This document shows positions 28,918 to 56,093 of a stretch of 64,000 nt of DNA, one piece after another. The stretch is from Nocardioides sp. URHA0032. GTDB taxonomy: Bacteria > Actinomycetota > Actinomycetes > Propionibacteriales > Nocardioidaceae. The stretch spans positions 248,001-312,000 of the forward strand of contig NZ_JIAV01000018.1 in the NCBI RefSeq assembly GCF_000620645.1, written 5' to 3'. Numbering within the stretch: position 1 is the first letter of the stretch; every line of letters begins with the position of its first letter. The position numbers and the translations under genes are program-made. A model generated the notes under the pieces. That model made no database searches, had not been told where the DNA came from, and saw only the letters and a list, made by a program, of their open reading frames with translations.

Positions 28918-30159
28918 TCAGGAGGTGATCTGGCCAGCGCTTCCCGCCTGGGTCCGCTCCAGGTATGGCTTGGCGCGCTCGATCTGACCCTCCAGCGCGG
29001 TGACGGTCTGCGCCATGCTGTCGACCGCCTGCGCCCGGAAGGTGTCCAGAGCGTCCATTGTTGCGAACACGTTGTCGAAGGCCGCCTGCAGCTTCTGCAC
29101 GTCGAGGGTGGCCGAGGCGGCCTGCTCGTTGATCTGAGCGCCCTGGACCCGCAGCTGCTGGGACGTCGACTCGATGAGGTTGGAGGTTGTCGTGTTGAGA
29201 GCGCTGATCTGGTCGAGCACTAGCTTCTGGCGGCTGAGCGCCTGAGAGACAATGACCGCCGTACGGAGTGCGGTCACGGTGGTCGTCTGGGCTCGGTCGA
29301 CGCCCTTGATCAGCTCAATGTTGTTCTTCCGGACCAGGTCCAGAGCCAGGTAGCCCTGCGCTGCCACCGCCATCTGCGTCATGATGTCTTGCCGCCGCTG
29401 ACGGATCGCGAAGAGAACGTCCGAGCGCATGGTGTTGGCGTCCTCCGAGCGTCCCGCCGCCTCGAGCTCGGCGATCTTGGACTCCACGGCGGTGTCCAGC
29501 GCGGTGGCCAGTGCGTTGTACTCGTTGAGCGTGCCCATCGCCAACCACATGTTCGCCTTCTCGGTCTCGATCGCGGCGTTGTCCTTCCGCAGCTCGTCCT
29601 GGCCGGAGTCCAACGCCTTGATGATGGCGTTGAGGTGGTTCTGCGCGGACTGGTACTTGGCGAAGTACCGCGACATCTTGTCGCCACCAGGTATCCACTT
29701 AAGGACGCGCTTCACGCCTGTCAGGTCGGCCCGGTTGGGATCGAGCTCCGTCACGGTGACCCGCAGGTCGACGAGCGCGTTCGCGACCCGGGTCTGGGCG
29801 TCTCCCGCATCCCCGCCCTTGCTTCCCTTCACAATCGCGGCAGGCCGCTCGAGCATGCGATTGGACACGCTTGCCGACGCTCGCATGTCCTTATCGCCCA
29901 TCGACGTGATCGAGTCGACCTTCTTGGTGAACTCGGGAGAACGAGCGTCCAAACTCGCGAGCTCGTCGGCGAACGCCTGGGCGCGGCTCTGGAGCTCGGT
30001 CTGCTTGGCCGGATCGATCGGCACGGAACCGGCAGCCTGCTCCGGCGCCACCACAGTGACCGGGGCAGGAGGCTCAAGCACGAGGGAACCGCTCGTCGCG
30101 GGGATCGCCTGGGACGCCCCAGGGGTGGCGGTGGTGCCGCTGAGGTCGAGCTCGGACAT
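28918..30159 (-). CDS. telA: TelA family toxic-anion-resistance protein
   Basis: Protein of 413 aa, the usual TelA length (about 380-420). It is largely coiled-coil: RAQAFADELASLDARSPEF, MSRYFAKYQSAQNHLNAIIK, MWLAMGTLNEYNALATALD, IRQRRQDIMTQMAVAAQGYL. The last part contains ALRTAVIVSQALSRQKLVL, a TelA hallmark. TelA proteins accompany TerD/TerC in stress and colicin/phage/tellurite phenotypes; their mechanism is unresolved. The start is ATG 30159 with AAGGAG six bases upstream (30165-30170). Confidence 0.93.
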   Translation of the reverse strand: MSELDLSGTTATPGASQAIPATSGSLVLEPPAPVTVVAPEQAAGSVPIDPAKQTELQSRAQAFADELASLDARSPEFTKKVDSITSMGDKDMRASASVSNRMLERPAAIVKGSKGGDAGDAQTRVANALVDLRVTVTELDPNRADLTGVKRVLKWIPGGDKMSRYFAKYQSAQNHLNAIIKALDSGQDELRKDNAAIETEKANMWLAMGTLNEYNALATALDTAVESKIAELEAAGRSEDANTMRSDVLFAIRQRRQDIMTQMAVAAQGYLALDLVRKNNIELIKGVDRAQTTTVTALRTAVIVSQALSRQKLVLDQISALNTTTSNLIESTSQQLRVQGAQINEQAASATLDVQKLQAAFDNVFATMDALDTFRAQAVDSMAQTVTALEGQIERAKPYLERTQAGSAGQITS

Positions 30160-30287
30160 GAAGACTCCTTCGTAAGCCTGTTGGCGCCTTAAGCTACCTG
30201 CCCGGCTTTGGGGAGGCGGTGGCATCGGCGGCTGCCGTCCCGCCGCCGCGCTCCACGGGCTCGTTGGTCGGTGAGCTGGGGTCTGCC

Positions 30288-30866
30288 TCAGAGGTGCGGC
30301 GTAATCGCAGGCAGCAAGTCCTTGAACGTCCGGCCGTTGGCGATCGCGCCCAGGGCGGTCATCGCCCAACCGTCACCAGTTCGAGCGACCTTCGCCATCA
30401 CCTGCGCGGTGTGTGGCCCGGAACCGGTCAGCTCGTATCGGGCGATCTCGTCACCCGTCTGCTCGTCGACGAGGCGGCAGAAGGCGTTCTCGATCTGGCT
30501 GAAGTTCTGACCGGTGAACGAGTTCACCAAGAAGACGATCGAGTGGACCTGGGCCGGCAGGCGGTCGAGTCGTACGGCGATCGACTCGTCGTCACCATCC
30601 CCGTCACCGGTCAGATTGTCCCCACTGTGCTCGATGGCGCCGTCCTTGCTTGTCAACTGCTGGAACCAGACCTGGTCCAGGACATTGCCACGGGCGTCGT
30701 ACACGACCGCCGAGGCGTCAAGATCGATCGACTGCGACTTCAGCCCGCCGAAAAGTCCGCGCTTCTTGACCGCGTCCCATCCCAACCCCATCCGCACGTG
30801 CGTCAGCGTCGCGCCACCCTTCTTGACGAGCGAAACGGCTTGACCCTTGCTGAGAGATACCGACAC
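30288..30866 (-). CDS. TerD family protein (canonical calcium-site type)
   Basis: Protein of 192 aa from GTG 30866 (VSVSLSKGQAVSLVKKGG, the TerD N-terminal pattern). The acidic metal-binding loops are intact: SIDLDASAVV and IEHSGDNLTGDGDGDDESIA. C-terminal part ITGDEIARYELT... leads to GDGWAMTALGAI. An upstream ATG would add about 95 non-homologous residues, so the GTG is preferred. It heads the leftward unit toward telA (128-bp gap with a likely promoter). Confidence 0.92.
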   Translation of the reverse strand: MSVSLSKGQAVSLVKKGGATLTHVRMGLGWDAVKKRGLFGGLKSQSIDLDASAVVYDARGNVLDQVWFQQLTSKDGAIEHSGDNLTGDGDGDDESIAVRLDRLPAQVHSIVFLVNSFTGQNFSQIENAFCRLVDEQTGDEIARYELTGSGPHTAQVMAKVARTGDGWAMTALGAIANGRTFKDLLPAITPHL

Positions 30867-34974: not shown

Positions 34975-36156
34975 TCAGGTGCAGGCGCTCGCGGCGAGCA
35001 GGTCGACGAACCCAACTTCGGGGGCAGCCACCCCGAACGCCGCTGCGCGGCGCACGGTCCGCTCCGCCCACGATCGGTGGGGCCTCGCCTCATTCATCTT
35101 GTTCCGGTACGCAGACGCGCGCACCCCGCCGCTCGTCATCTGCTCCCCCAGGATGTCGCACGCGTCGGCGTACTCCTCGTGGGTCACAACGGAGAGGGCA
35201 TGCACGGCCGCAACGTGCGTCGGGTGGATGACCGTCTTGCCCGTCAGACCGTTCGCCTTGTCGAGGACGGCCTCACGGATGAGCCCGTCCAGGTCGCGAC
35301 GAATCAGCCGATGTCGAAGCTTCCGCTCATCGTTTTCGTCGAACGGCGACTCGCGCAGCAACGGCTTGGACATCCGGTCATGGTTGACGAAGTACTCCCA
35401 CACCGGGCCGGTCACCACGTACCCGGACCCGTCGGCGCGGCCCAAGACGTTGACGACGTCAGAGATGACCTCGGCGACGACTCGAACATCGTAGATGGTC
35501 AGGTCCCGGTCGCGGCGTATCCCGAACGCCGCCGACAGGTCCGTGGCGCCCAGCCGCACGGCCAGCACGACATCGCGATGCTTGGCCAGCAGACGCTGCA
35601 CTCCCAGAAGCATGTCGGTGCGAGTCTCGACGTGGACGGCCTCGGGAGACTCGATGACCGGCATGGCGTGCAGCGCCAACCCGGTTCTCGATCTGACGTC
35701 GGCTAGCGCCTCGAGGAACTCGACCCCGGTTTCTTCGGTGAACTTCGGGAGCACGAACCCCGACAGGACGCGGGCGTGCACCCCCAGCCCGTCAACGACG
35801 TCGACGATCTGATCTGGGTTACGGACCCGAACGAACGTCAACGGAAACTGCGCCGCGGGGCCGCCTCCGATGACGGCCCGGCCGAGCTCGCCCAGCTGAT
35901 TCACGACATTCTTCTCGGCGGCCGGAAGGTCAACGTCAGCGATTGCGTCCTCCAGACACACGACACTGCTCACCACACCCGACCCGCCCTGCTTGACCAG
36001 GTCTCTTGCCAGCGTCGTCCGGGTCGCCGGCATGTACAGGGTCGCGCCCAGGGCGACCGCAAGGACCTCGGCGTCCGCGTCGCGGTCGAACTCCTCGGGA
36101 TGTACCGAGAACAGCCGCTCGGTCTCGGTAGGGTTGAGGTGGTCGAAGTGCCGCAT
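34975..36156 (-). CDS. HpcH/HpaI aldolase / citrate lyase beta (CitE)-like protein, Ter-associated
   Basis: TIM-barrel C-C lyase/ligase-like enzyme of 393 aa. Features: ATLYMPATRTTLARDLVK, VSSVVCLEDAIAD (metal-ligand Glu/Asp), LPKFTEETG, PVIESPEAVHVETR, AVRLGATDLSAAFG and GKTVIHPTHV. These fit the CitE-like group found next to TerD genes, proposed to help build a nucleoside-like metabolite. The start is ATG 36156 preceded by CGGAGGAACCGG, a strong ribosome site. It is separated by the terD/GTPase operon from the PRTase set at 57.8-61.3 kb. Confidence 0.9.
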   Translation of the reverse strand: MRHFDHLNPTETERLFSVHPEEFDRDADAEVLAVALGATLYMPATRTTLARDLVKQGGSGVVSSVVCLEDAIADVDLPAAEKNVVNQLGELGRAVIGGGPAAQFPLTFVRVRNPDQIVDVVDGLGVHARVLSGFVLPKFTEETGVEFLEALADVRSRTGLALHAMPVIESPEAVHVETRTDMLLGVQRLLAKHRDVVLAVRLGATDLSAAFGIRRDRDLTIYDVRVVAEVISDVVNVLGRADGSGYVVTGPVWEYFVNHDRMSKPLLRESPFDENDERKLRHRLIRRDLDGLIREAVLDKANGLTGKTVIHPTHVAAVHALSVVTHEEYADACDILGEQMTSGGVRASAYRNKMNEARPHRSWAERTVRRAAAFGVAAPEVGFVDLLAASACT

Positions 36157-36432
36157 CCGGTTCCTCCGTGCTCGGTCGCGCTGTTCGCAGGCCGTCACGC
36201 TACCAACGGCCGCACCGCTGCCGATCGCAGACGCGTAGCGCACACCGCCGTCCCCACGGCAGATCCGAGCGTCCCGGTCAGCAGCCGGCCCAATGCGTGC
36301 GTCCGAGACCCGGGCACGGTGCCGGCTCTGGAACGATCTCAGGCATGCCCGTGTCACGCGAGGTACCTGTGACGTCCCGCCTCTCCCTTCCTTGCGGGCG
36401 GAAACCAGCGGACCGGTTTACGATCACACCGG

Positions 36433-36981
36433 TCAGTCGCTGATGGAGACCCCGTAGTCCTCACTCAGGCCGCGCAAACCGGTTTCGTACCCCTGCCCGA
36501 CAGCTCGGATCTTCCATTCGCTGCCACGGCGATACAGCTCCACGAGGATCAGACAGGCCGTGCCTGCCTTCTCGGGCCCGACCTCGTAGCTCGCTAAGAC
36601 CCGCCCTGAGGCGGGGTCGAAGGCGGCCACCTCGATACCGGACACCGACGTCAAGGACACCCCCGGCTCAAGGGCCGCCAACGCCACGATCACCTGATGT
36701 GCCCTGTCCGGGAGTTGCGCCAGGTGCACCTGAAACTGGCCGCGGTCTCCGTCCGTCGGAACACCCATGGCGAGGTGCCTGAGGAACACTGCCCGTTCGG
36801 GGGAAACCACGTTGTTGAAGAACACCATGTGGCCATCGCCAAGTACCTTCCGGTCCTCGTCGCACACCAACGCCACCAGGTCGCAGTCGACTGAGTCGAC
36901 CCTCCACCGTGCCCCGACCACCAGACCGTTCATCGACGACGGTCCCAAGACCGTGTTGGCACCCCGCGACAGCGTGGTCAT
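36433..36981 (-). CDS. TerD family protein (last gene of the tubulin/GTPase operon)
   Basis: Protein of 182 aa from ATG 36981, overlapping the GTPase stop (ATGA). TerD core: LSRGANTVLG, LGDGHMVFFNNVVSPERAV, LVELYRRGSEWKIRAVGQGY, and a C-terminal YGVSISD. The acidic loops are reduced (DCDLVALVCD; no DNLTGEG loop), so it is the non-calcium type. Its position as terminal gene of the ten-gene unit suggests it is the output or partner of that apparatus. Confidence 0.9.
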   Translation of the reverse strand: MTTLSRGANTVLGPSSMNGLVVGARWRVDSVDCDLVALVCDEDRKVLGDGHMVFFNNVVSPERAVFLRHLAMGVPTDGDRGQFQVHLAQLPDRAHQVIVALAALEPGVSLTSVSGIEVAAFDPASGRVLASYEVGPEKAGTACLILVELYRRGSEWKIRAVGQGYETGLRGLSEDYGVSISD

Positions 36982-38120
36982 CCGGCCACCTGCAACGCCC
37001 ACTTGAAGGGATCCAGCACACGGAACGGCGCCATCCCTCCGGAATGGAGCATCTCGCCCTCCGGGCTGGCGCCGAGGGCTGAGACCGCGAAGTACCGGTA
37101 GCTCTCCGCGGACTCCTCGATCATCGCCGTCACGCCGGTCGCCTCGAGACGGTCAAGGAGCGCGCGCACCTCCATGTGCAGCAGGTCCGCGTCCGCAGCG
37201 TCGAACCACGCGCTGCGCAGCGACGGGTCTCGCTGCAGCGGCGAACCAGGCCGGTTCATGATCCGCGACCACTCGGTGCCCTCAACCCTGCGCAACTCTT
37301 GCATCGTGTCGAACTTCGAGAGCACCACCGCCAACGGAATGCCCGTCCGCGCACCAACCTTCTTGCCCGTCATCAGCGACAGCAGGTGCTGGAGCACTGC
37401 CGTGCCGTCGCCACCCACCCGGGAATCGGAGGGGACCGCATCGCTGAGCATGTGGCGAATCGCGGGCACCTTGAGCGGATCCAGGAGCGCGATCACGGCA
37501 TCGGCGCGCGAGAAGAAGCTCAAGGCCAGGTCGCGCTTGTCCTCCAGGTCCTCCCCCGCAACGTCGCGCATCACCAGGACCCTGCTGCGGCGCGTGTTGT
37601 CCGGCATCACCTCAGTGAACCCGAACATCAACGGCTCCCGCGCAGTCGTCTGGTCGTCCCCGATCGACGCCGTCGGCGCGAGCAGCTGCCGTTCCTCCTG
37701 CAACCGGCGGGTGTAGGTGTCGTAAAAGATTCTCTCGGTCTCCCCGATGCCGCGCAGAGCCGAGCGGTGGTGTCGTTCCACCAGCAGCTCGAGCTGCGCC
37801 TTCGCAGCGGCCAGCATCAGGCTCTTGCCGGTTGCTCGCGCACCCGACATCGCTACGCACGTGACCTTCGCAGAACGCCAGCTCGGCGGGATCTCGCCCA
37901 GGCAAGCCGGGCAGGCTTCCACGTCGGTCACCGTCTGACACTTCGAACACGTTGCCCGGTCCGCGCCGCGTGCCTCGAGCACGGGCTTCAGGTGCGTCTC
38001 GTGGCCGCGAGCCGCTGTCGCTGTCTCGTTGCGGGTGCTCTGGCACGTACCCACGCACACGAAGTACTGGGGCTCTGCCGGTAGGTACCGGAAGCACGTG
38101 GGGCACTTGGTTTCACTCAC
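36978..38120 (-). CDS. Zinc-ribbon GTPase of the double-GTPase (DO-GTPase2-like) type
   Basis: Protein of 380 aa from GTG 38120 (overlaps upstream stop, GTGA). Two zinc ribbons come first: Cys6/Cys9 with Cys22/Cys26, and Cys58/Cys61 with Cys70/Cys73. A P-loop GTPase follows: Walker A GARATGKS (93-100), switch II RDVAGED (185-191) where DxxG reads DVAG, and a G4-like SKFD (268-271). Actinobacterial genes of this kind sit with GAP1-family proteins and are annotated as double-GTPase/GTPase-associated systems. It likely acts as a regulated switch. Confidence 0.8.
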   Translation of the reverse strand: MSETKCPTCFRYLPAEPQYFVCVGTCQSTRNETATAARGHETHLKPVLEARGADRATCSKCQTVTDVEACPACLGEIPPSWRSAKVTCVAMSGARATGKSLMLAAAKAQLELLVERHHRSALRGIGETERIFYDTYTRRLQEERQLLAPTASIGDDQTTAREPLMFGFTEVMPDNTRRSRVLVMRDVAGEDLEDKRDLALSFFSRADAVIALLDPLKVPAIRHMLSDAVPSDSRVGGDGTAVLQHLLSLMTGKKVGARTGIPLAVVLSKFDTMQELRRVEGTEWSRIMNRPGSPLQRDPSLRSAWFDAADADLLHMEVRALLDRLEATGVTAMIEESAESYRYFAVSALGASPEGEMLHSGGMAPFRVLDPFKWALQVAG

Positions 38121-39289
38121 CGAACCACCGCCAAGCTCGAGGTGAGTCGCGCCGCCAGCTCTGCCGCCCGGGAACCACCCAACGACGGCTCGCCGGCTGG
38201 TCCCAGCTGGACTGCGACGGCGGAGAAGTTGTCGACACCTTCCGCGAGCTCGAGACCGCTGAGTTCCTCGGCCCACCACTCCACGTCACCGAGGTCGCTG
38301 GTCAGCCCCACGCGTGACCTGCCGAAGGTCAGCAGCCGGAAATCCACCTGGCGGTGCTGCCGGGCTAAGTCAAGCAGGGCAGGGAGGTCTCCAGGCACGC
38401 CGTCCGCGACCAGCAGCACCACGCCACCGGGACCGACCCGGCCCGCGAGCTCGGCGGCGGTAGCGGCCACGTAGCACCACGACGCCGGCTCGACGCTCTC
38501 GTACAACGCAGCGACCAGAGCGCTCGGATCCGTACGTGCATCCGCTACGGCGACCGCGGAGACACCCGACAAGACGGCTTCGGAGGCCCAGTTGCCAGTC
38601 CACTCCACCAAGGTTCCGCACGCAAGCTCCAGCACCGCCGTGAGCGATTCGCGCGGAAGTGCGGAAGTGATCGAGGCCGAGCCGTCCAGCGCTACCGCCC
38701 ACGCCTTGCCGGTGCCGTCGTTTCGCTGAGCTGTCGAGGACAGCCGCGAGGTGTCGCGAAGTGCATAGCGGCCCGGCCGGATCCACGGATGGGCGGTGTC
38801 GTCGGGGCGCACCAGCGCCACGGACTCACGCTCGCCTCCGAACAGGTCCCCCGAGGTGAACCGCTCTTCCGGTGCCCCGGGGTTCGCGGGGACCAGGCCA
38901 GTATCGGATGCGGTGATGATCGAGCGACCGGGTGCGAACTCCACGACGGCGAGCTCGCAGTTCGGCAACGCCCCGACGTCGACCTGGGCGATCAGTACCT
39001 GCTCGGTCGCGACGCTGGCTCCCAAGGTGGTCACGGTCAGACCCAGGGTCGTGCCGGCCGGGAACGCTCTGCTGTCGACGGGCCGGGTGACCAGGCGCAG
39101 GCGCCGTGGTTCGGGGGTGATCACGACCTCCGTGGCGGACTTGCGGATCATGACCGTCGTCTCGTGTCCGGCCTGGTCGAGCGCGGCCAGCTGGACGACG
39201 CGAGGGTCCGCTCCCGTGAGCGTCACCTCGAGCGCGGCGTGGGGCAGGTCGTGCGACTGTCCCGGGTCAAGTTCGCGGTTGGCGACCAT
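38117..39289 (-). CDS. vWA-like protein with N-terminal TerD-like module
   Basis: Protein of 390 aa from ATG 39289; its stop overlaps the GTPase start. The N-terminal ~120 residues (LDPGQSHDLPHAALEVTLTG) resemble the first strands of TerD-like domains. The C-terminal ~200 residues look like a von Willebrand A fold: WAVALDGSASITSALP at 198-212 (DGSAS at the MIDAS place, a variant of DxSxS) and VLLVADGVPGDLPALLD near the fifth strand. The MIDAS is imperfect, so metal binding is uncertain. Overlaps the GAP1 gene by 23 bp. Confidence 0.68.
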   Translation of the reverse strand: MVANRELDPGQSHDLPHAALEVTLTGADPRVVQLAALDQAGHETTVMIRKSATEVVITPEPRRLRLVTRPVDSRAFPAGTTLGLTVTTLGASVATEQVLIAQVDVGALPNCELAVVEFAPGRSIITASDTGLVPANPGAPEERFTSGDLFGGERESVALVRPDDTAHPWIRPGRYALRDTSRLSSTAQRNDGTGKAWAVALDGSASITSALPRESLTAVLELACGTLVEWTGNWASEAVLSGVSAVAVADARTDPSALVAALYESVEPASWCYVAATAAELAGRVGPGGVVLLVADGVPGDLPALLDLARQHRQVDFRLLTFGRSRVGLTSDLGDVEWWAEELSGLELAEGVDNFSAVAVQLGPAGEPSLGGSRAAELAARLTSSLAVVR

Positions 39290-41417
39290 CAGATCCTCCG
39301 TACATGAGTTGTTCGATCCGAGATGACCAATCTCTCGGCATCCCGCGGTAGCCGGAGAACTTCTCCTCGAAGATGTAGTCCTGCGTGCTGTGCTCCAGGG
39401 CGTTCCACGCTCGGAGGGCTCCAGCCCATCCCAGCGTTCGTCCGGGAGCCACTGGGAACGAAAGTGGTGACTGCGCCGGGCGCGGGTCGACGTCGCGGTT
39501 CAGCGCGGCCACCACGAGCTCGGCGGCCAGTGGGGCGTCCTTACCGACGATCAGCCCGGTGACGACCTTGACCCACTGGGCCGTTTCCCGCTCGAGGCTG
39601 TCCAAGCTCGCTGGCGTCAGGTCCTCTCGGACCCCCATCACGTCTCGAAGGACTTCCTCCATGGCGTGGTAGTGCCACAAGAGGTTCTCGGTCTCGGTGC
39701 GCTTCTTGACGACGTCGCTGATCTGGACTGCGAGCCTGGCGATCGCCGGCTCGCTGATCCCGAGTCCGGGAGGCGTCGAGGTGCGCAGCACCGGTGCCCC
39801 GGCGACACCGGCCGTGGGTCGGGTCACCGTCGGCCGGAGGGGCGCTGCGGTGGGCGCTGCGGTGGGCGCTGCGACGGGCGCCTCGGGGCCTGGGACCGTC
39901 GGCGTCATTTTTGGGTGGACAGGGCCGGGCGATCGCGATGTCGACGCCTCCCGTCTGGCCGCCGCTGACTCAGCTGCCGCTGTCAACGGGTTCGGCGCCT
40001 CCTGAGGCGACCGCGTCGACCACGGCGACCTCGCCGGCGGTGGGTTCGCTTCGGAGGCGGTCTCGTCCGGAGCAAGGTCCGCGTCTGCGGGCGCATCCAG
40101 TTCGCGCTGTGGCGCGCCGGCGGCGGCATCCGTCCACGCAGAAGCCCGTGCCTGGTACGTCCCCTCGGAACCTCCCGCTCCGCTGCCGGCCTCTCGGGCA
40201 GTCGCTGGGACTCGTGTGCCCTGTCCGGACTCGACGCCCGTGGGCGAATCCGCATCCGAAGATGTCTCCCGCGCGGCCGGTCGGCCCGCATCGATGTGAC
40301 GAACGGGCACGAACTCCGCCAGACGGGGATGCGCGTCGAGCTCGGAGGGGAACGTCTCCACGCACTCGCGCCGCATCCGCTCCGCGTCGGTGACCGGCGA
40401 CCCGGTCACCAGCATCGCTATCGACAGGCCCCAGTGCAGCGGCAGGCCCGCGGCAACCGCATGCGTGAGGCCCGAGGTGATGTCGTCCATCGTCTCGAGT
40501 ACCGCTACAACGCTGGCTCGGTCGAGCGCGAACAGGTCGAGCATCGCGTCCTGCCATCGTGGAGCATCCGGCCAGGACTGCCCGCCCGGCGCCTCCCACG
40601 TCTCGCCGTCGTCATCGAGGCCCCACCGTGGGTCCAGCGCCAACAGCTTCGGCGAGGCCGTCGACATCACCTCGTCCAGGTCTTCGCGCGGCACGCAGAC
40701 CACGTCCAGATGTTCGCCGGCAAGCAGCCGGCCGATGCCTGCTCCTCGCTCGTAGGTGACCCACCTGATCCCGCGCGCTTGTGCCGGCGGCATCAGGTGG
40801 CACAGCACCCCGATCCACCGGGCGCCCTCATCGGGCGTCTCCACCGCGAGCACCAACGTGGTGCCGCTGGCGTAGGCGTGTGCCATCGCCGCGAGCAGCC
40901 ACTCGGCCACGAAGCGGTGCTCCCCCTCCATGATGAAGTCGACGACTTGGGTGCGGCCCACCGCGTCTCCGGGGCGAAGGTCTCCGAGCTTCGCCGAGTT
41001 CACCTCGCCAATCCCGAACGGCGTCAGCCAGTCGGGCGAGCGCCAATAGTCGATCGGTCTGGTGGCCGGCGCCGACTCCCGTCTCGCAGCGGCGTGGGTG
41101 AACACGTTCCCAGGGCGCCCGGAGGCGTCCTGTCCCGCACTGGCTGCGTGCCACATGAGCGTGGCTCCGTCGTCCGCCTCGGTTGCCAGCATCCTCCGGG
41201 GCCGCGCATCCAGCTCTGCCTGGGTCGCGAACGGCGACGTGGCGACGACTTCCTCCAGCGAGGTCGTCACACCGTTGCGCAGCACCTCCACCAGATCGGC
41301 GGGTGCGCCGGGGCTGACCTCGCCGACACCCCAACCTCCCCGTGAAGCGCCTGGCCGGTCCATGGAGACGTAGGTCAGCTGCGCCCACGACGTCTCCGCT
41401 GACATCTCCGCGCTCAT
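39267..41417 (-). CDS. GTPase-associated protein 1 (GAP1-N2)-family protein
   Basis: Protein of 716 aa. The first ~380 residues fit the GAP1 N-terminal and middle domains: AQLTYVSMDRPG, RRMLATEADDGATLMWHAAS, GNVFTHAAARRES, YWRSPDWLTPFG. A Pro/Ala/Ser-rich disordered segment (about 385-560) contains a short tandem APTAAPTAAP. A helical C-terminal part (HYHAMEEVLRDVMG) follows. GAP1-type proteins accompany double-GTPase genes in actinobacteria and are presumed regulators or platforms for them. ATG 41417 overlaps the upstream stop (ATGA). Confidence 0.75.
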   Translation of the reverse strand: MSAEMSAETSWAQLTYVSMDRPGASRGGWGVGEVSPGAPADLVEVLRNGVTTSLEEVVATSPFATQAELDARPRRMLATEADDGATLMWHAASAGQDASGRPGNVFTHAAARRESAPATRPIDYWRSPDWLTPFGIGEVNSAKLGDLRPGDAVGRTQVVDFIMEGEHRFVAEWLLAAMAHAYASGTTLVLAVETPDEGARWIGVLCHLMPPAQARGIRWVTYERGAGIGRLLAGEHLDVVCVPREDLDEVMSTASPKLLALDPRWGLDDDGETWEAPGGQSWPDAPRWQDAMLDLFALDRASVVAVLETMDDITSGLTHAVAAGLPLHWGLSIAMLVTGSPVTDAERMRRECVETFPSELDAHPRLAEFVPVRHIDAGRPAARETSSDADSPTGVESGQGTRVPATAREAGSGAGGSEGTYQARASAWTDAAAGAPQRELDAPADADLAPDETASEANPPPARSPWSTRSPQEAPNPLTAAAESAAARREASTSRSPGPVHPKMTPTVPGPEAPVAAPTAAPTAAPLRPTVTRPTAGVAGAPVLRTSTPPGLGISEPAIARLAVQISDVVKKRTETENLLWHYHAMEEVLRDVMGVREDLTPASLDSLERETAQWVKVVTGLIVGKDAPLAAELVVAALNRDVDPRPAQSPLSFPVAPGRTLGWAGALRAWNALEHSTQDYIFEEKFSGYRGMPRDWSSRIEQLMYGGSDGRQPRT

Positions 41418-43699
41418 GCGTCGCCCACCGAGAGCCGGCCAACCGCGGGGTCCAGGACCGCGATCAAATGCGCGTGCTCTGCGGGCATTTCCACGAACAG
41501 GCGAATGTACCCGCTCATCCCCACAAGGTTGAGATTCTCGAACACCGACGCGGGTGTGGCCTCAGGCATCGCCAGTCGCCGGCGCGCCACTTCGATTCCG
41601 TCCCGTTCGCGCGAGTGCAACGGCAACCTGTACGGGTGGTTCACCAGGACGAGAGTGATGTCGTCGACCGAGCCGTCCGCAGTCACCGTGACTCGCCGCA
41701 GTGCCGGCGTTGTCCCGGCGCGCCCGAGAAGCCCTCGAGGCTGTTCCTCCGTGGTCACGTCGTACCGCAACCGCAGCAGCCCCGGGTAGTCGATTGACCT
41801 GGGCTCTGACAAGGTTGAGCGTGCCTCTGCGAACGAGACTGCGACCACGTGGACCACGCAACCTCGAGCCGGCAGTGGTGCCGCCAGATGCGCACCACCC
41901 TGCTTTACGTACTCGTCCTCAAACAGCTCCGCGACGGGCTCCTGCAGCTCCGGCACGAGCGGGGTGCCCGGCGATCCGATGTAGATCCGCACCTGGCCTG
42001 CTCCCGGCGGCCACGCGAACGTCAAGAACTGCTCGTCGACGCGCTCGACCAGGCGTAGGCGATCGACGGCCGCGGACCTGTTGAGGATGACGACGTTGCC
42101 GACCTGAATCTGGTCCTCGGACAGCACGGTCACCGCCGTGAAGTACACACGCGACCATCCTTGCGGCCACGGCACGCCACGCATCGAGTCAACGCCGTCT
42201 GCGGACTCCAGTTGACGTGTCTGCAGCAGCTCCGGCGTCAGGCCTCCGGGCTGACGAGTGAGCGCGCCCCGGTCGATGACTCGCGCGCCGATGCCGGAGG
42301 TGGGCGGGGTCGCCGACCGGTAGATCTCGACCTTGCCGAGCGCTGGACGGGTCCACTGGAGATCGCAGACGTCCTCGGACCCCTCCTGGAGGGTCACCTT
42401 CAGGTCTTCGACCTTCTCCAGGACCGCTTGGACCCGCACCGGCCGCACCACAGGAGGTGACTGCGTGCCCACGTCCGCGATGTTCGCGAACGCGTAGACG
42501 CGGTACTCGTAGGACTGCCCCGGATGTGCGGCGTCGTCGCTGAACCCTCCCATCCCGACGATGTTGGCCGGCAGGAGGTAGTTCGGGTTGTAGTGCGTCT
42601 GGGTTGCGGCAACCTCGGCCGGGATGCGGAGCACGTCGACCCGCTCGACACCGTCAGCGGTCTGCCACTGCCCGATGACCGTGCCCTCGTCCTCGCGAAT
42701 CACGCAATTGCGCACAGGCATGACGCAACTGCCCGACGCGTACAGCCGTGGCAGCAAGTCGCGAGCCGCGCGCTCGGTGACGCCCTCGTGTACCCACACT
42801 GCTACGTGACGCACCGGATGTTCCACGGCACGGGTGTCGGCTGCTTCACGGTCGTAGGTAGCGACCAGCAGATCACCCAGCTCCGGTGACAGGTTCGGCA
42901 GGAACTGGTCGTTGGTCACGACCCGGTAGATCCGCACCATGTGGTCTTGCGGAGGCTCGGGCCACGCCATGCTCAGGGCGCCTTCGTCCGAGATGGTGAA
43001 CGTGACCTCGAGCGGCGCAGGCCCAGGGTCCGTCTGCGCTCCGTAGACCCAGGCTGCGAAGTCGGTGCCCTCGGCCTCCCCCGTCTTCTCCGGTCCGCCC
43101 TCTTCCGCAGTGTCCGGGATCTGTGCTGGCTCGTCCTCCGCTGCCGTCTCGTCGACGTGCACAGCGGCGAGAAGCTCGCGCACCTCGGCCTCGTGCTGAC
43201 GCAGGAACGGCCCGAGACGCTTGAACGACACCCGGTCCGACTCAGCTGCTTCCCGCAGGTTCGCGTCGTTGACGTTGCTGACGTCCTCCCCGGAGGACTT
43301 GCGCCGCTCCACGTACTCCACGAGCGCTTCGTAGCGGACCGCCGCCAGGGCGCTCATCCCGGAAGTGCTCGAAACTCCAGCGCTCGACCCTCCAGCGCTC
43401 GATCGAGTGCGGTGGGACTGGTCGGGGCGCGGAGCTGGCTGGAGCGCGTTCGGCCCACTGGTGGCGGGTGTCGCCGCAACCTTCGGGCCGGCCGCAGCGG
43501 AGAGCGCCCGGTCGTCTATCGCAGCCAGCAGCCCGTCCCACGCCGAGACTAGGCGGTCTCGATCTTCCCAGAGCATCCGGTCGACGACCTCCAGGTCGCG
43601 CACTCCTAGGCGCACGACGACCTCGACGTCTACCGCGTCGGGTGCCGCGTTGCCCAGCGCTGTACGCCAGGTCAGCGCCCGGTCCAGTTCTGCACTCAC
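41414..43699 (-). CDS. Large protein with FN3-like beta repeats, Ter/GTPase operon
   Basis: Protein of 761 aa from GTG 43699 (GGAG upstream, overlap with the preceding stop). The N-terminal ~240 residues are helical and acidic. From about residue 240 come at least three fibronectin type III-like modules, each with a W-P ... V-x-IYR core: MAWPEPPQDHMVRIYRVVT, LQWTRPALGKVEIYRS, FAWPPGAGQVRIYIGSPG. No signal peptide or membrane helix is visible, so it is predicted cytosolic. A C-terminal beta domain (LIAVLDPAVGRLSVGDA) closes it. Family not known to me by name. Confidence 0.7.
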   Translation of the reverse strand: MSAELDRALTWRTALGNAAPDAVDVEVVVRLGVRDLEVVDRMLWEDRDRLVSAWDGLLAAIDDRALSAAAGPKVAATPATSGPNALQPAPRPDQSHRTRSSAGGSSAGVSSTSGMSALAAVRYEALVEYVERRKSSGEDVSNVNDANLREAAESDRVSFKRLGPFLRQHEAEVRELLAAVHVDETAAEDEPAQIPDTAEEGGPEKTGEAEGTDFAAWVYGAQTDPGPAPLEVTFTISDEGALSMAWPEPPQDHMVRIYRVVTNDQFLPNLSPELGDLLVATYDREAADTRAVEHPVRHVAVWVHEGVTERAARDLLPRLYASGSCVMPVRNCVIREDEGTVIGQWQTADGVERVDVLRIPAEVAATQTHYNPNYLLPANIVGMGGFSDDAAHPGQSYEYRVYAFANIADVGTQSPPVVRPVRVQAVLEKVEDLKVTLQEGSEDVCDLQWTRPALGKVEIYRSATPPTSGIGARVIDRGALTRQPGGLTPELLQTRQLESADGVDSMRGVPWPQGWSRVYFTAVTVLSEDQIQVGNVVILNRSAAVDRLRLVERVDEQFLTFAWPPGAGQVRIYIGSPGTPLVPELQEPVAELFEDEYVKQGGAHLAAPLPARGCVVHVVAVSFAEARSTLSEPRSIDYPGLLRLRYDVTTEEQPRGLLGRAGTTPALRRVTVTADGSVDDITLVLVNHPYRLPLHSRERDGIEVARRRLAMPEATPASVFENLNLVGMSGYIRLFVEMPAEHAHLIAVLDPAVGRLSVGDA

Positions 43700-44484
43700 C
43701 TGTGTTCTCCGTTCGGGTGGGCCTTCCCAGGCTCGCCATCCAGGAACTGACTCACGATCGGGGCAGTGGTCGAACTGCTGCTGCCGCTGTTGTGTAGCTC
43801 GCCGACCGGGGCACTCCACACGCCCGCGGCAAGTACTGATGGCTGCCCCGCCGCGAGAGCCGGCCGCTGCGTTCCCACATCCGGAGGCCGCACCACCATC
43901 GCCTGATTCGTCCCCCGCCGCTTCACCGGCGCCGGCCAGCTCATGATCACCGCCGCGGCCACCAACACAGACGCCGAAAGAGCCATCCAAACGGCCAGCC
44001 CAACAGTCGCCTGACCTGACGTCTTGTCTGCCGCCGTGGACGATCCGATGCCCGCCACCTCGTTGACGGCCGACGCCACCAGCATCGCGTCGACCACCAG
44101 ACCCGCCCACGCCGACGCGGCCAGGAGGGAGAAGACCACAAGCACGCGGGAGTCCCGGCCGGCGAGCAGCACGACCGCGTGCGCCCCGACCAACGTTGCC
44201 GTGACCAGGCACGCGACGAGTCCGACGAACGTATCCGCCGGACGCGCGTCCATCGACAGGAAGGAGGTGGACAGAACCTCGCCTTCAACCCTGCCCCATG
44301 CTGCGGGCAGACACGCGACCATGAGCACGCTGGCGGTTCCCAGCAGCGCCGCACCCCACGGCCGTCGACGCGACGGTGCACTCCAGTCCCGGCGCCGGCC
44401 GAGCAGCCACACGATCACCGCGAGCGTCGCGCACCCCAACGCGACGTCGAACGTGACCAGCAGCATCAGCTGAGCGAACGGCAA
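43696..44484 (-). CDS. Polytopic membrane protein, Ter/GTPase operon
   Basis: Protein of 262 aa starting at TTG 44484 (ATG 44466 is an alternative giving 256 aa). About five hydrophobic helices lie in residues 6-190 (LMLLVTFDVALGCATLAVIV, WGAALLGTASVLMVACLPAA, FVGLVACLVTATLVGAHAVV, VVFSLLAASAWAGLVVDAML, AVWMALSASVLVAAAVIMSW). A disordered cytosolic tail of ~70 residues follows. No motif identifies it. Overlap with the FN3-like gene (GTGA) implies joint translation. Confidence 0.75.
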   Translation of the reverse strand: MPFAQLMLLVTFDVALGCATLAVIVWLLGRRRDWSAPSRRRPWGAALLGTASVLMVACLPAAWGRVEGEVLSTSFLSMDARPADTFVGLVACLVTATLVGAHAVVLLAGRDSRVLVVFSLLAASAWAGLVVDAMLVASAVNEVAGIGSSTAADKTSGQATVGLAVWMALSASVLVAAAVIMSWPAPVKRRGTNQAMVVRPPDVGTQRPALAAGQPSVLAAGVWSAPVGELHNSGSSSSTTAPIVSQFLDGEPGKAHPNGEHR

Positions 44485-44497
44485 GCTACGTCACCGC

Positions 44498-47185
44498 CTA
44501 CATCTGGGGGCGCTCGACAGGCGTGTCGACCACGTCGCTGTCAGCGGGGTGCGTGGGTGCCGCCGTCGCGGCTGAGCTCTCGTTCGCGCGGATCAGATCG
44601 TGCGAGCTGAACCCGCGAGAGAACTGCGTCACGACGACCACATGGTTCGCGTCGCTTCCGGACGAGTCCGGCACGGTCTCCGCAACCCTCCACGGCTCGA
44701 TGCTTTGCGCGGAGGAGGAGAAGGTGGCTCGCAGGAACATGTGGCCGCTGTCGTCGACAGCAGCGTCGAGGCCGCCGTTGAACTCCTCTAGTGACGTGCG
44801 CACGAGTGCTCCCGAGACGGGGTCGCGAGTTTCGACGTCGGACAGCAACGCGGCACGCAGATCCTGCCCGGTTGTGCCCAGCACCTCCGAGACGCGACCC
44901 TCCAGCACGCCAGGCGTACCCTCCCAACGGCGGGCCGCCACGACTTCGCTCCACGTCGTGAGCAGCGAACGTTGCGTGATCGGTGGATCGGTGAAGAGCA
45001 GCTCGCGGCTCTCGCTCAGGCGGTAGCCGTCGGATCCGAGGTCGGGCAGGTCGTCTACGAACGCGTCCCACGCGGCGCTCAGCCAGCCGACCTGGAACAG
45101 GTCGTGACGCAGCCGAGCGGCCGACCTGTTGATGGTGGCCGAGTCCGGCCGTGCTGAGCCGAACCGGTGGTTCTTCGGGAACCGGGAACCGATCAGCAGA
45201 TCGGCAACGGCGCCGACCTCGGGGTAGCCCAAAGGAGCGTGCACGAACGTCCCGAACGCGCGCGCCCAGTCCAAGTACTGACGGTAGGCGCGACCCAGCC
45301 TGCGCAGGTCCGAGCGCGCCGCCGCCGCGTTCGCGAGGAGAGCCTCCTCGGCGTCGGCGAGCTGCTGGCGTCGGTGGATGAGCGCAAACAGCGCTGTCTG
45401 CCCCTTGACGAACACGACCCCCGAGGTGGCCAGCCAGCCGAGAAACGTCACGACCAGCACGGCTGCCATCACGCTCAGGCCGATAACGCCCAGAACGGCA
45501 AGGACGACCGCCGCTACCCCGATGCCTACGGCGGCGACGAGGATGATCTTCAGGGTGCGCGCCAGCCGCTGCTGCTGCCGGTAGACGTCGTCGGAGGCCT
45601 CGGTCTGCGACTGGAGGGCCTTCATCTGATCGTCGTAGGACTTCAGCTCCGTACGACACCTGGTGATGTCTTCGAAGATCCGGTACCCGAAGCGTCCGGT
45701 GAAGGTGCGTGCCTTCTCGTCGAAGAACGTCTGCAGGTCCTGCTTGACCTTGCCGGCGTTCGCGACCAGATGGGGCGCACGCTCCGGGAGGGTCTCCAAC
45801 TGGTGATATACGTCCCGCGCTCCCAGGACATCAGCGGGCTCCACACGGTCCCGGTTGATGTAGGGCGCCACCTCGCTGCTGACGACGAACTGGATCGAGG
45901 GATCCGGGGCCACCCGGCCCGGGTCGACAATGACCGCCTTGCTGCTCCCGATCTCCTGGGGCGCCAGACCGTCTGCCCGGGTCCCAGCGTCGAGCAACGT
46001 CATGCCGGAGCTCAGGAAGTCGCGCCACAGCGCCGACAGGTCGGCCGGGGCGAGATGAACCACGTCGGCCCGACCTTCGGCACGAGCATCGACCTGTGCC
46101 AACGCCTGGTCGAACTGGTCCCAGCTGGCCGGGCGCCCGTCAGGCCCGATCCCGCCCACGACCACCTTGAACGCAGGGTCGGTGCCCCCGAACACGGCTC
46201 GGTTCACGGCCGCTGCTGTCCCGGCCGACGCCTCGTAGAGAACCCGATCAGCGAAGGCCCTGGGGGCGTTGCGGATGGCCTGGCCCAGGAACGAGAAGAG
46301 CATCCTCAACAGCTGCCCGACCTTGATCGGCTGCTGCGGGACCGTCCGCGCCTGGGCCCGGGCTCCAGCGAACACGTAGTGGTGCTTGTTCTCGAGGGCT
46401 TGCGCCATCGAGGTGACGGCACCCACCTCGTCGTCGATGATCTCGGCAGCGGACCCGTCCACCAGGGGCAGCGGGTATCCGAGGCTCAGGTCCGCCAACT
46501 TCGTCAGCAGCTCAGACTCGACCGCGGCCGTGGACAGGTGGCGGGTGAACGAGCGTGCCGCAAGGAACGACTGTCCTGGCGCCACGGGACGCTCGTCAAG
46601 CGGTGCGGACTGCTGGGCCGACCAGAGGCCGGCCAACGAGCACAGGCATCCCGCAAGCTGGAGAGTCTGGGTCGGGTCGCCCGCCTGCCGCACGATCGGT
46701 GAAACGCCTGCTGTCGGGGACTGGGCGCTCTCGGGCGCGACGATGACGTTATGCCAGCCCAGCCACGCGAGGTCGTCGATGCCGGTGAAGGGTCGTGCCG
46801 CGTCGACGACTGTCGTGATCAGGTGGATGCGGACCAGGTCGACGGTCGGCAACGACGCATTGACCTGGGCGACCAGGTCGAGCGCGAGACGGTCTGAGAC
46901 GGTCGACAACTGCGACGAGCTCTCGCTGACCGCAACCACCCGGACGACTCGTGTCGAGACTCTGGCCGCCAGCTCTTCCTGCAGGACTGCGCCGCGCACC
47001 CCGTTCTCTTCGAGCACGGTGCACGGGATCCGCACCTCCCCGTCCTTGAGGGCGTCGACGTTGACGAGCGTAACGCTTGTCGTCAGCCCGAGCCGGACCC
47101 AATCGTCCAGCACGTCGCGCAGCGCGAGGTACTGCTCGGCTCGAGCAGCGACGACAGCAAGGTCAGAAATCGGGCCGCGCGACAC
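44498..47185 (-). CDS. Large two-pass membrane protein, Ter/GTPase operon
   Basis: Protein of 895 aa. GTG 47185 gives MSRGPISDLAVVAARAEQYL and overlaps the tubulin-like gene by 23 bp; the open frame above it is the antisense-like continuation in the neighbouring gene. Two adjacent hydrophobic segments near residues 560-610 (IILVAAVGIGVAAVVLAVLG and MAAVLVVTFLGWLATSGVVF) form a hairpin, flanked by basic and coiled helices (RIFEDITRCRTELKSYDDQM). The N-terminal half is Leu/Val-rich alpha-beta, as in a GTPase-effector or vWA-like scaffold. Family unknown. Confidence 0.72.
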   Translation of the reverse strand: MSRGPISDLAVVAARAEQYLALRDVLDDWVRLGLTTSVTLVNVDALKDGEVRIPCTVLEENGVRGAVLQEELAARVSTRVVRVVAVSESSSQLSTVSDRLALDLVAQVNASLPTVDLVRIHLITTVVDAARPFTGIDDLAWLGWHNVIVAPESAQSPTAGVSPIVRQAGDPTQTLQLAGCLCSLAGLWSAQQSAPLDERPVAPGQSFLAARSFTRHLSTAAVESELLTKLADLSLGYPLPLVDGSAAEIIDDEVGAVTSMAQALENKHHYVFAGARAQARTVPQQPIKVGQLLRMLFSFLGQAIRNAPRAFADRVLYEASAGTAAAVNRAVFGGTDPAFKVVVGGIGPDGRPASWDQFDQALAQVDARAEGRADVVHLAPADLSALWRDFLSSGMTLLDAGTRADGLAPQEIGSSKAVIVDPGRVAPDPSIQFVVSSEVAPYINRDRVEPADVLGARDVYHQLETLPERAPHLVANAGKVKQDLQTFFDEKARTFTGRFGYRIFEDITRCRTELKSYDDQMKALQSQTEASDDVYRQQQRLARTLKIILVAAVGIGVAAVVLAVLGVIGLSVMAAVLVVTFLGWLATSGVVFVKGQTALFALIHRRQQLADAEEALLANAAAARSDLRRLGRAYRQYLDWARAFGTFVHAPLGYPEVGAVADLLIGSRFPKNHRFGSARPDSATINRSAARLRHDLFQVGWLSAAWDAFVDDLPDLGSDGYRLSESRELLFTDPPITQRSLLTTWSEVVAARRWEGTPGVLEGRVSEVLGTTGQDLRAALLSDVETRDPVSGALVRTSLEEFNGGLDAAVDDSGHMFLRATFSSSAQSIEPWRVAETVPDSSGSDANHVVVVTQFSRGFSSHDLIRANESSAATAAPTHPADSDVVDTPVERPQM

Positions 47186-50100
47186 GCGAGTCTCCCATCG
47201 TCGGTCTACCGCCGGCTGCTGCCGCCGCGTTCTGGACGCTCGCCTCGATCTCCTCGAGAACGGAGTCCACAACTTCGGCAATCTCAGCGAACATCGGCGC
47301 CCGCTCCAGAGCAGCCACGTCGGGAACCCGAGTGCGCTTGACGGCCAAGGCGCCCACGCCTCCCCCTTCGGAGAGGTACTGGGCAGCCACGTACTCACGC
47401 ACCGCGGCCAGCCACGTGCTCGCCGCGTCCACACGCGATGCCACGTCCGCCGAGCCGGCTGCGGCCAACGAGTCCACCGTTGGCGGTCGGCCTGTCGGCC
47501 ACGTCCCCGAGCTCACCCACGCGGCGATCAGCCGGTCACCACTGGACCCGTCGTAGGCCACGAACGGCTCCGACAGGGAGTCGTCGGCGATGCCACGAAG
47601 TGCGACGTAGGGACGCAGCGCGGAAAGTTGCACGTCGTTGTTGCAGTTGATGAGCGCCAGGGTGTGCCCCTCCAGCACTCCGGGTAGCCAGTCGTCAGCG
47701 CCGCGGTACCGGTCTCGGGCCGTCATCTGTCGCGTCGCGAACGGGATCCACGTATGGGTAGCAGAACTGAACACCTGCACGGGGTCTGGCGAGGACGTGT
47801 CGGTAGGCACCTCCACCATCCCGAGCATCCGCCCGATGAACCACCCCTTGATCATTGCGCGCTGCTCCGAGGCCCCCATCGCGAGCGCGCCCGGCAGCGG
47901 GCGGGTGCGGCGCCAGCGCCACAGCATCCGCAGCGCGTGCTCCTGGGATCCTGCCCAGCTGCGTTGCACCTGGTCGAGCAGCGAGCTGAAGACCAGCGGC
48001 GAGTACGTCGGGTACGACCCGAACATCGCGATCCGGTTCGCCTTCGAGGTTCCCCTGAGTGCGGACTTGAAGTTCGTCACCGCGGGGACGCCGATCGACG
48101 GGTCTTGTTCCAGCGAAGCGATGAGTCGCTGCGCTGCCGCGCTGGAGTCCTCGAGGGGCACCGTTCCGAAGGAGTACTCGTAGGACAGGGACGCTCCCGA
48201 GTGGACCTTCCCGATCATCGACGGGCTCACTCCGACCAGCGGGCGAGCCAGCAGCCGCGCCTCGGTGAACTTCTGCACGAACAGGTCCAGTCTCCGTGCC
48301 CTCTCCGAGTCGGGCTCAGACATGTCGTTGAGGAAGTCGTCGAACGTCTCGGAGGAGAACTCCTCGAACTTCTCCCCGGGACGCTGCTGGAATGCGCGAG
48401 CCCGGTCCAGCACCTCGCTCGCGGACGCAGCGACTCGGTACACCGGCTGCTGCTTCGGCGTCGGCACCTGTGTTGCCGCGGCCTTCGGCAGGGCCGCCGA
48501 ACGCCATACGACCTGGGTGCTCAACACCTCGATGTCGCCGGGCTGTCCGCCAGCGCTCTCCCACTTGCCGGCCACGATGGAGCTCACGATCTCCGACAGT
48601 GCGGTGTGGTAGATCCCGCCGGCCGACACCACAGTCGCCGCGACGTCCTGGGCGAACTGCTCTGGGAAGTCCTTCGACGTCGTCAGCAGCACCTCGTTGT
48701 CGGCGTGGTCGAACCTGGAGGGCACCACGGCCGACTCGGCGGGCCATTCGGAGTAGATGGCCGTCTCCAGCTGCGCGAGGCCAGCCTCCGTGGTCGTCTC
48801 GCGCTCGGCCGCCTCGAGGTTGATGAGCGCGTTGGTGGCTGCGGCTTCGAGCCCTCCGAGGACGTCGTGGGCGAACGTGGCGAGCACGTCCGCTGCCAGT
48901 CGCGCCGCGGACAGTTCCACCGCGCGCGAGGCGCCCCCGAGAAGACCGACGGTGATGGCCTCGACCAGGGCGTGCCCGGAAGAGACCAGCGTCTTCTTCA
49001 AGCCGGCGGCCTGGGCTGCGACCGAGTTGTCCATCACCAGAGGAGGCGCGTCGTCCGGGTTCGCCCGGCGCAGTTCCTCGATGACCGGCGTGAGGTGCGA
49101 GGCGAGCTTGCGCATCACATCCCGGGCGTACGGCAGACCTGCTGCGGTCATCGACCGTACGAACTCCTCACGGGCCCGCTTCTCCAGCGTCGTGGCCCAC
49201 GCCTCGCCCCACGCGTAGGTTGCAGCGTTGATGCGCTGCTTGGCATCGGCTTGGTGGTAGCCGAGTCGGGTGCGTACCGTCTCGACGAACGCAGGCGCCT
49301 GGCTCGGAGGGATGCTCCCCACGTCGAGCAGTGCCGCACTGATCGCCTGTTGCGCCTCGGCGCGAACCGTCTGCGACGAGAGCGCACGGTCGGACAGGAA
49401 CCACCCGCGCACGCTCTCGTCGCGCTGGGGGAACATGAGACGGTCGACAATGAGGGGCCAGTCGGACGCCACGCGCTGCTTGAGCTGTTCCTCGGCAGGC
49501 AGCTGACTCTGCTGTGCCCGGTAGCCACGCACCAGGCGGTCGACGGCGTTGCGCGCCAGCCGCTGGCTTGCGTACTCGGCGTACCGGTCACGGCCAAGGC
49601 TGAGGCTGGCGTACCCGAAGGACCCCCACGCAAACGCGGTCGGGTCCACGCCCCAGCCCAGGGAGGCTCGGTCCATGGGCGGCGCGGTCGTGTTCTCCAG
49701 CTTCGACTTGACGTACTGGCCCGCGGCCGCCTCCGAGCCGATCGTGGCAGCCAGCGCCCGGCCCAGTCCCCGGTAGACACCTTCCATGGTCCCGTCGCCG
49801 AACTTCGCGCCGTCCCCGCCGATGGCCGCGCCGATGGGGATTACCCGCTTGAACGGGGGCTCGTCGACCGTCTCTGGTGGCAGGCCGAGAGCGGAGAGTA
49901 GCTCTGCGTCGACGGCGTCCGCGGCGCGAGTCTGAGCAGCGATCAGATCCCCCATAGCCCCGGTGGCGTTTCCGTCGATGCCCATGCGCAGCGCCTCGTC
50001 GAGCGAATTGAACACGTCGGAGGTGAAGAGGAACACTCCGAGCTCGGAACGCGACATCCCGGGTACCCGGCCCAGGAGGCGGCACACGTCGAGGAACATC

Positions 50101-50657: not shown

Positions 50658-50682
50658 GTGAGGTCCCTTCCTGAAGTACTGC

Positions 50683-53361: not shown

Positions 53362-53837
53362 CAGTTACTCCGGGCGAAGGCGTCGGCGATGGTCCAAGCG
53401 CTCAATGTGACCCCAATGAGTGACAGCACGACGACCGTGCGGCGGCCCCAGTCGATGACCGACGACTCGGCGTACCAGGGGTCAGCTCGGCGCAGAGTGT
53501 CGACTCGCACGAACACCGCGAGAAGCGTGATGGTCACGGGGCCGGCTAGCACCCACGCCCCAATGGCGACCCAGTGCGAGTCGGACAGCATGCTCAGCAC
53601 TATCGCAACGGCGGCGGACACGAGCGCCGCGATCAGCCAGACGACGGGCGCGGTGGTGCCGCGGTTTGCAGACGGCCCACTGGCTGGCGCCGGCGCCGGA
53701 CCCGGGTCGTCCACGGATGGCTGTCCCCATCCGGCACCTTGGGGCGACTGCGCTGACGGGGATCCCGGCGCATCGCCCCAAGAACCTCCCGACCCGGCTC
53801 CACTCCCTGGGTCTCCGAAGTTCCACGACGAAGACAT
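53358..53837 (-). CDS. Membrane protein with disordered N-terminus, head of tubulin/GTPase operon
   Basis: Protein of 159 aa from ATG 53837 (GGGGAG seven bases before). Residues 1-65 are Gly/Ser/Pro-rich and probably unstructured. Three hydrophobic helices follow (VVWLIAALVSAAVAIVLSML, VAIGAWVLAGPVTITLLAVF, RTVVVLSLIGVTLSAWTIAD). It is the first gene of the ten-gene leftward unit, coupled by GTGA to the vWA gene. No known motif. The 162-bp gap upstream is the likely promoter region of the operon. Confidence 0.72.
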   Translation of the reverse strand: MSSSWNFGDPGSGAGSGGSWGDAPGSPSAQSPQGAGWGQPSVDDPGPAPAPASGPSANRGTTAPVVWLIAALVSAAVAIVLSMLSDSHWVAIGAWVLAGPVTITLLAVFVRVDTLRRADPWYAESSVIDWGRRTVVVLSLIGVTLSAWTIADAFARSNW

Positions 53838-53999
53838 GACCGCACTCCCCATCCGCGCCACCGTGAGGCGCTCTCTAGCGCCGCTCAATCCGCCCGTCAC
53901 CCTAGTGCCCTTTTGGACGGTCAGCGACCGTTCTTGGGGCTGAACTTGTCCGGTCCCAGCGCTCCCGGGGCGGGCCACCGTCTCCCCGTTCGGGTGGGG

Positions 54000-55973: not shown

Positions 55974-56093
55974 GGTGCTTCCCCCGTTGAAGCCAGGTTG
56001 GCGAGCTGGGACTCCAGCGGCCCTGAGCTCGGTGATGCGGTTGTTCTTGTCGCAACGGTTGCGTGACCTGATGGTCACGCACCCGCCGATGGT

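Follow-up and report, generated by a model that had tools for sequence, protein, structure and literature searches.

The closest described counterparts of the locus analysed here are the GAP1-N2 DO-GTPase systems (eLife 2020, PMC7159879), in whose actinobacterial tubulin theme, according to the text of that paper, a GAP1-N2 protein and a zinc-ribbon GTPase of the DO-GTPase2 family are accompanied by a Tubulin_2 protein, a large vWA protein and a protein described by the FN3 and HRDC domains. "Double-GTPase" refers in that text to paired paralogous genes; two GTPase copies were reported in 38% of the systems and hence are not required. The FtsZ-like 1 operons (Makarova and Koonin 2010, PMC2875224) share with our locus an FtsZ-like protein, a vWA protein, a diverged P-loop GTPase and membrane proteins. 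Among Ter (tellurite-resistance) proteins, TerB and TerD have been viewed as potential sensors of a signal, TelA and the vWA protein TerF as components of submembrane structures (PMC7824862). We analysed a stretch of 64,000 nucleotides from Nocardioides sp. URHA0032 (contig NZ_JIAV01000018.1, positions 248,001 to 312,000; hereafter the window), in which an operon of this kind carries a gene for a 390-residue protein, p390, between GAP1 and the GTPase, and a TerD gene behind the GTPase. Sequence comparison points to p390 as a probable TerF that has diverged strongly, TerF being a protein with a TerD domain followed by a vWA domain.

These two genes are what differs from the tubulin theme as the text of PMC7159879 presents it: a TerF-like protein stands between GAP1 and the GTPase, and in 12 of the 22 loci that we gathered TerD stands behind the GTPase. 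The text of PMC7159879 on these systems names neither TerD nor TerF, figures and supplements aside, where an earlier mention is possible; its main text contains TerD once, among nucleotide-binding domains that it lists, and has neither TerY nor "tellur". In the text of PMC2875224, no Ter component is named for the FtsZ-like 1 operons and "tellur" does not occur. No statement of TerD or TerF as part of a DO-GTPase system was found in the available text of PMC7159879, PMC2875224, PMC7824862 and PMC11237479, and an earlier mention in figures, supplements or the 2012 Ter paper is possible. The TerF-like protein and TerD, as Ter parts of a GAP1-N2/DO-GTPase2 operon, would be an addition to a known system.

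Gene order, coupling and the GTPase

The operon comprises ten genes on the minus strand of the window, in the order p206, large vWA protein, Tubulin_2, p906, a small protein, the protein in the FN3/HRDC place, GAP1, p390, GTPase and TerD, the last four standing at its end. GAP1 (GTPase-associated protein 1, type N2; 716 residues; 39267..41417) matched Pfam GAP1-N2 with an E value of 2.9e-19 and GAP1-M with 6.1e-9, in agreement with its identification in a first-pass annotation of the sequence. It begins at an ATGA overlap with the upstream gene and overlaps p390 (38117..39289) by 23 nucleotides, and GGAGG precedes the ATG of p390. The stop of p390 is overlapped by the inferred GTG start of the GTPase (36978..~38120) in a GTGA junction, and the GTPase is joined to TerD (36433..36981) by ATGA, the start codon of TerD lying within the GTPase stop. 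The coordinates and strand that the first-pass annotation had given for GAP1, p390 and the GTPase were correct. Its description of these genes as a fused translational unit is fair as to translation, because the gene junctions overlap and the genes are coupled through their stops and starts; they are not fused into one protein.

The p390 family consists of 22 loci, including the window. A search with the single p390 sequence found only the window's own protein in 197 genomes of the class, and a two-row profile over 396 genomes found the window and one further genome (G179). With an eight-row profile, matches appeared in 19 of 293 genomes of the order, and five of these had been known before. 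Within the genus, the tubulin protein had matches in 6 of 215 genomes, including the window's own, and within the class in 10 of 394. Two relatives, L017 and L018, showed 28-29% over 72 residues. The gene for p390 lies between GAP1 and the GTPase in 21 of the 22 loci; in the remaining one (L109) the contig ends behind p390, before GAP1.

As annotated, the window GTPase has two zinc ribbons, each with a Cys pair, followed by the P-loop GARATGKS (37821..37844), the DVAGE Walker B/switch box (37551..37565) and SKFD, an NKxD-type motif (37308..37319). PF19993 (DO-GTPase2) was matched by 20 of the 22 members of the GTPase family at E values up to 1, the best being 3.6e-10; the window GTPase itself gave no match at this threshold. 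None of the 22, the window included, departs from the G, G, K and S of the P-loop, from the D.AGE box or from SK.D. DZR matched 12 of the 22 at E values up to 1, and several members lack the first zinc ribbon, judged by their predicted starts. A second G domain, for which the first-pass annotation had proposed a search, is ruled out by the single P-loop of each protein, and no second GTPase gene appeared either, each locus giving one GTPase match. G221 (L015 8123-17432) appears to carry a GAP1-N2 system of HSP70 type, in which two genes are GTPase-like by blastp to the window and HSP70 is judged from its start residues.

Relation of p390 to TerF

The protein p390 was annotated as vWA-like, and its C-terminal half does carry DxSxS (D202, S204, S206), followed further on by DG at 296-297, within a vWA domain of residues ~195-328 (38306..38707); DxSxS is intact in 18 of the 22 family members. 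PF10138, the vWA family of TerF, was matched by four members (best E 0.0039), the most of any Pfam family at E values up to 1, whereas VWA_2 was matched by one (E 0.14). In hhalign comparisons, the 22-row profile of the C-terminal domain or of whole p390 aligned with 28 TerF vWA domains over 118-134 columns, with probabilities of 92-93% and P values of 3.5e-7 to 8.2e-7; the other vWA protein of the operon gave 3%. This TerF alignment has 28 rows, as four of the 32 TerF-type proteins gathered were added later and joined only the TerD part. When the 22-row profile was run over 266 genomes, 17 rows were returned, two from the family itself (window and G179) and 15 from outside it. TerF accounts for 12 of these 15, eight coinciding with PF10138 places and four being assigned by Pfam; the remaining rows were one generic vWA protein, one ABC ATPase and L191. 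When 28 TerF and 41 generic vWA domains were ranked, both the whole family and the window clade came out on the TerF side. These comparisons suggest that, for the family as a whole, the vWA domain of p390 is closest to that of TerF.

Several results weigh against this kinship. As a single sequence, the window p390 matched nothing in Pfam, NCBIfam or PADLOC, and PF10138 was not matched even at E values up to 1. The eight-row profile reached only 44% with the TerF vWA domain. The whole family aligned with 30-row VWA_2 and VWA sets at 78-90%, over the 18-20 columns of the metal-site motif only. The window clade alone scored higher with VWA (70%) and VWA_2 (50%) than with TerF (33%), and the g97 clade showed no preference for TerF in the ranking. 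Part of this pattern would be expected if p390 were a vWA co-factor protein whose N-terminal domain is an unrelated Ig-like one, its Ter likeness being due to convergence of beta-sandwiches and to a generic vWA domain; against such an explanation stands the predominance of TerF among the non-family rows.

The N-terminal domain, residues 3 to ~128 (profile columns 3-125; 38906..39283), had been read in the first-pass annotation as beginning with TerD strands. Read as generic TerD, this claim found little backing. Pfam TerD matched none of the 22 members at E values up to 1, and generic TerD profiles gave 2-28% in hhalign (P 0.019 to 0.00065) over 24-60 columns. Moreover, these alignments paired the end of the p390 domain with the C-terminal half of TerD, not with its first strands, as did the match of the G674 p390 to the TerD HMM (hidden Markov model) in a 22-protein search (E 5e-5). 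For a null, windows were taken from the other families of the operon, 95 of 96 being scored; against generic TerD, two of the 95 scored as high as the N-domain in one of four profile pairings, and none did in the other three. Generic TerD was set aside as partner of the N-terminal domain and replaced by the TerD domain of TerF itself, which is recognisable in 19 of the 32 TerF-type proteins; these 19 formed the template, and the other 13 show no TerD domain upstream.

With this template, the claim of a TerD-like N-terminus stood in part. The 22-row N-domain profile aligned collinearly, its columns 3-125 with TerD columns 5-158, over 121 columns (P 6.2e-4, 28%). The six rows of the window clade alone gave 124 columns (P 1.6e-4, 50%) and the other 16 members, a disjoint set, 123 columns (P 3.4e-4, 38%); the g97 clade gave 107 columns (34%), and the subset alignments share about one register. 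None of the 95 null windows and none of 100 column shuffles reached the score of the 22-row profile (27.8), the best being 18.8 and 17.9, respectively, and the reversed profile scored 13.1. Full-length p390 aligned with a joined TerD and vWA template over 284 columns spanning both domains.

Here, too, the evidence is not all on one side. The N-domain probabilities are only 20-50%, and their P values are flattered, because the choice of the TerF template followed weak results with generic TerD. The ten members outside the window and g97 clades aligned over 55 columns only, in the later half (P 0.0011, 20%). With whole p390 as query the TerD match fell to 13.5%, and to 2-4% against the joined template, while in the 284-column alignment the N-domain added little (score 56.2 vs 52.4 for the vWA alone). 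AlphaFold models from single sequences were useless for whole p390 (predicted local distance difference test, pLDDT, 32) and of low confidence for the N-domain (pLDDT 52). Foldseek with the predicted N-domain returned nothing at E values up to 0.001, and at the head of the VIA-align matches stood the integrative model 9a6r_B (Z 8.2, root-mean-square deviation 3.2, 131 aligned) and filamin/Ig-like chains. The structural neighbours of this low-confidence model are Ig/C2-like. TerD chains were not among the best 50 matches listed by either program, which is uninformative either way. The p390 profile also touches designed Ig proteins (E 0.0011). The Ig/C2-like folds, the designed Ig match, the modest N-domain probabilities and the missing Pfam TerD or TerF match of the window p390 all favour a convergent origin of the Ter likeness. 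The collinear match in two disjoint subsets and the N-domain score above every null window and shuffle speak against it, and we consider such an origin unlikely.

The vWA domain, for the family as a whole closest to that of TerF, and an N-domain collinear with TerF's TerD domain support TerF kinship, which is why we regard p390 as probably a diverged TerF. It would share with TerF the domain order, the vWA likeness and a weak collinear TerD likeness, and it differs in being too diverged for Pfam TerD and in being encoded within a GTPase/tubulin operon. The genome of the window gave no PF10138 match, although the window holds a Ter island; p390 may replace TerF there, since PF10138 is unmatched.

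The TerD gene behind the GTPase

The operon TerD of the window is an evident TerD-family protein (PF02342, E 5.1e-34; 117.8 bits against a cut-off of 25.3), and PF02342 was matched by all 12 operon TerDs. Besides the window, TerD stands behind the GTPase in G199, G674, G656, G688, G850, L106, L107, L108, L110, L112 and L114, and 9 of these 12 loci have a plausible TerD start that shares 1 or 4 nucleotides with the GTPase stop. In a GTPase tree of the 22 loci, which is unrooted and in which many other branches are weakly supported, a branch supported at 100/100 separates the 12 TerD-bearing loci from the rest; a single gain or a single loss of the TerD gene therefore suffices. The gene is absent from the other 10 operons, a point against the account preferred here.

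That absence, and the five further TerD genes in the Ter island around the window operon, could also mean that this TerD is a leftover neighbour from such an island and lies outside the system. Among the stretches fetched, only those of the window and G688 have TerC close to the operon, so TerD is not merely a Ter-island neighbour; it holds the same place in all 12 loci. With the stop/start overlaps and the 100/100 branch added, an origin as a chance neighbour is very improbable and largely refuted, and we rejected it. The first-pass annotation had proposed, from a TerD-like start of p390, a direct structural bridge between Ter proteins and the GTPase system. This bridge is partly supported, through the TerF likeness of p390 and the TerD gene in 12 of 22 loci, and not through generic TerD, for which the match to p390 is weak.

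The acidic GDN...GDDE loop of canonical TerD has a role in calcium binding. Two canonical TerDs of the window have the GDN and GDDE motifs, and none of the 12 operon TerDs has them, all of which match the family nonetheless; the operon TerDs may therefore not bind calcium as canonical TerDs do.

Two further features of TerD-bearing loci were observed. In the clade of L106-L108, L110, L112 and L114 (f41 family), the first GTPase zinc ribbon appears to have been lost, by predicted starts, and TerD is kept. Beyond TerD in G199, G674 and G656 (L012/L014, L058, L060), and perhaps also in G850 (L076), lies a three-gene module (~410-490, 176-204 and 362-394 residues) with start residues that look alike by eye; it is not found in the window.

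Putative role and the surrounding genes

We infer that p390 and TerD could act as the side of the GTPase switch that senses or adapts. The ligand bound by the TerD-like domains would be of Ter type, either a metal or a nucleotide-like product of Ter enzymes, and the vWA domain of p390 would hold on to a peptide in extended form, contributed by GAP1 or the GTPase. Ligand binding might then alter the state of the GTPase, a change that GAP1 would relay to the tubulin-like polymer and the membrane proteins, and the outcome could be a submembrane structure built under stress or phage attack. The view of Ter proteins in PMC7824862 fits such a membrane-near tubulin/GTPase machine. The account as a whole, with p390 as a diverged TerF and fixed subunit of the GAP1-N2/DO-GTPase2 operon, TerD joining in one part of the GTPase tree and both acting as sensor or adaptor, seems to us reasonably probable. 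We know of no experiment on any step of this mechanism, which counts against it, and to our knowledge no mechanism has been worked out for either the Ter or the DO-GTPase systems.

A different function is conceivable. The operon could be a membrane-remodelling or envelope-stress machine of the FtsZ-like 1 kind without a role in defence, p390 and TerD tuning it to envelope or metal stress. Probable membrane proteins are encoded in the operon, the text of PMC2875224 predicts membrane remodelling for FtsZ-like 1 operons that encode a distinct GTPase and a vWA protein, and that of PMC11237479 mentions a DO-GTPase in psp operons, predicted for membrane stress. In contrast, the text of PMC7159879 reads such operons as conflict systems from their phyletic pattern and organisation. 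We regard an envelope function without defence as possible, if somewhat doubtful; the envelope-stress and conflict readings are compatible and do not exclude each other.

With what are probably remote relatives of two Ter proteins built into a GTPase/tubulin operon, two poorly understood systems of stress response or defence may operate as a single machine, in which a TerF-like protein and TerD would be ligand-gated regulators of the DO-GTPase and a Ter signal molecule would switch a membrane tubulin-like filament; this wider proposal is speculative and, in our judgement, quite unlikely. Since Ter-family parts are fixed, translationally coupled neighbours of the GTPase, GAP1, p390, GTPase and TerD offer a small complex amenable to purification and assay, and the question of the role of TerD and TerF becomes a GTPase assay.

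The other six genes of the operon lie upstream of GAP1. The first, p206 (53358..53978), has homologues at the same place in related loci. The large vWA protein (50683..53361; PF13519, E 3.1e-7) is probably exported or membrane-bound, judging its N-terminus by eye, and is followed by the FtsZ-like Tubulin_2 protein (47163..50666; PF13809, E 8.9e-38). The large protein p906 (44498..47218) has homologues and a probable membrane segment, with weak matches of membrane-protein models at about residues 508-631; we also noted a weak NCBIfam match of residues 546-647 to the envelope-stress protein PspM (E 2.7e-4) and a weak PADLOC match to LeoBC (E 7.4e-4). The small protein (43696..44484), probably membrane-bound by eye, has one weak homologue, in G674. 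The protein before GAP1 (41414..43840) bears its FN3/HRDC name by its place in the operon, following the 2020 description; Pfam fn3 was matched by 1 of 18 members (E 0.08) and HRDC by none of the 18 at E values up to 0.1.

Around the operon, the Ter island includes TerC/DUF475 (54831..56078), TelA (28918..30369; PF05816, E 7.2e-85), the five further TerD genes, a C-C bond lyase (34975..36357; PF15617, E 1e-118) and the StiP/PELOTA and PRTase_2/TRSP genes (58660..61337), with the TerC, TelA, lyase and StiP/PELOTA to TRSP genes on the minus strand. Between TerC and the operon, positions 54000-54722 encode a 240-residue protein that has no Pfam match and contains VSLSK/VSLTK-like stretches resembling TerD starts by eye. 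Smaller tubulin modules, consisting of a vWA protein, a tubulin, a large third protein and the nuclease described next, were seen in G638, G928, G106 and G835 (L064/L065, L079/L080, L083/L084, L085/L086); neither GAP1 nor a GTPase was found in the stretches fetched there. In the window itself, positions 31343-32407 encode a predicted nuclease (domains GmrSD_C and Excalibur), probably exported judging by its start; of 13 loci, 10, the window among them, have a homologue close to the tubulin operon, and none was found in the 14 other stretches fetched.

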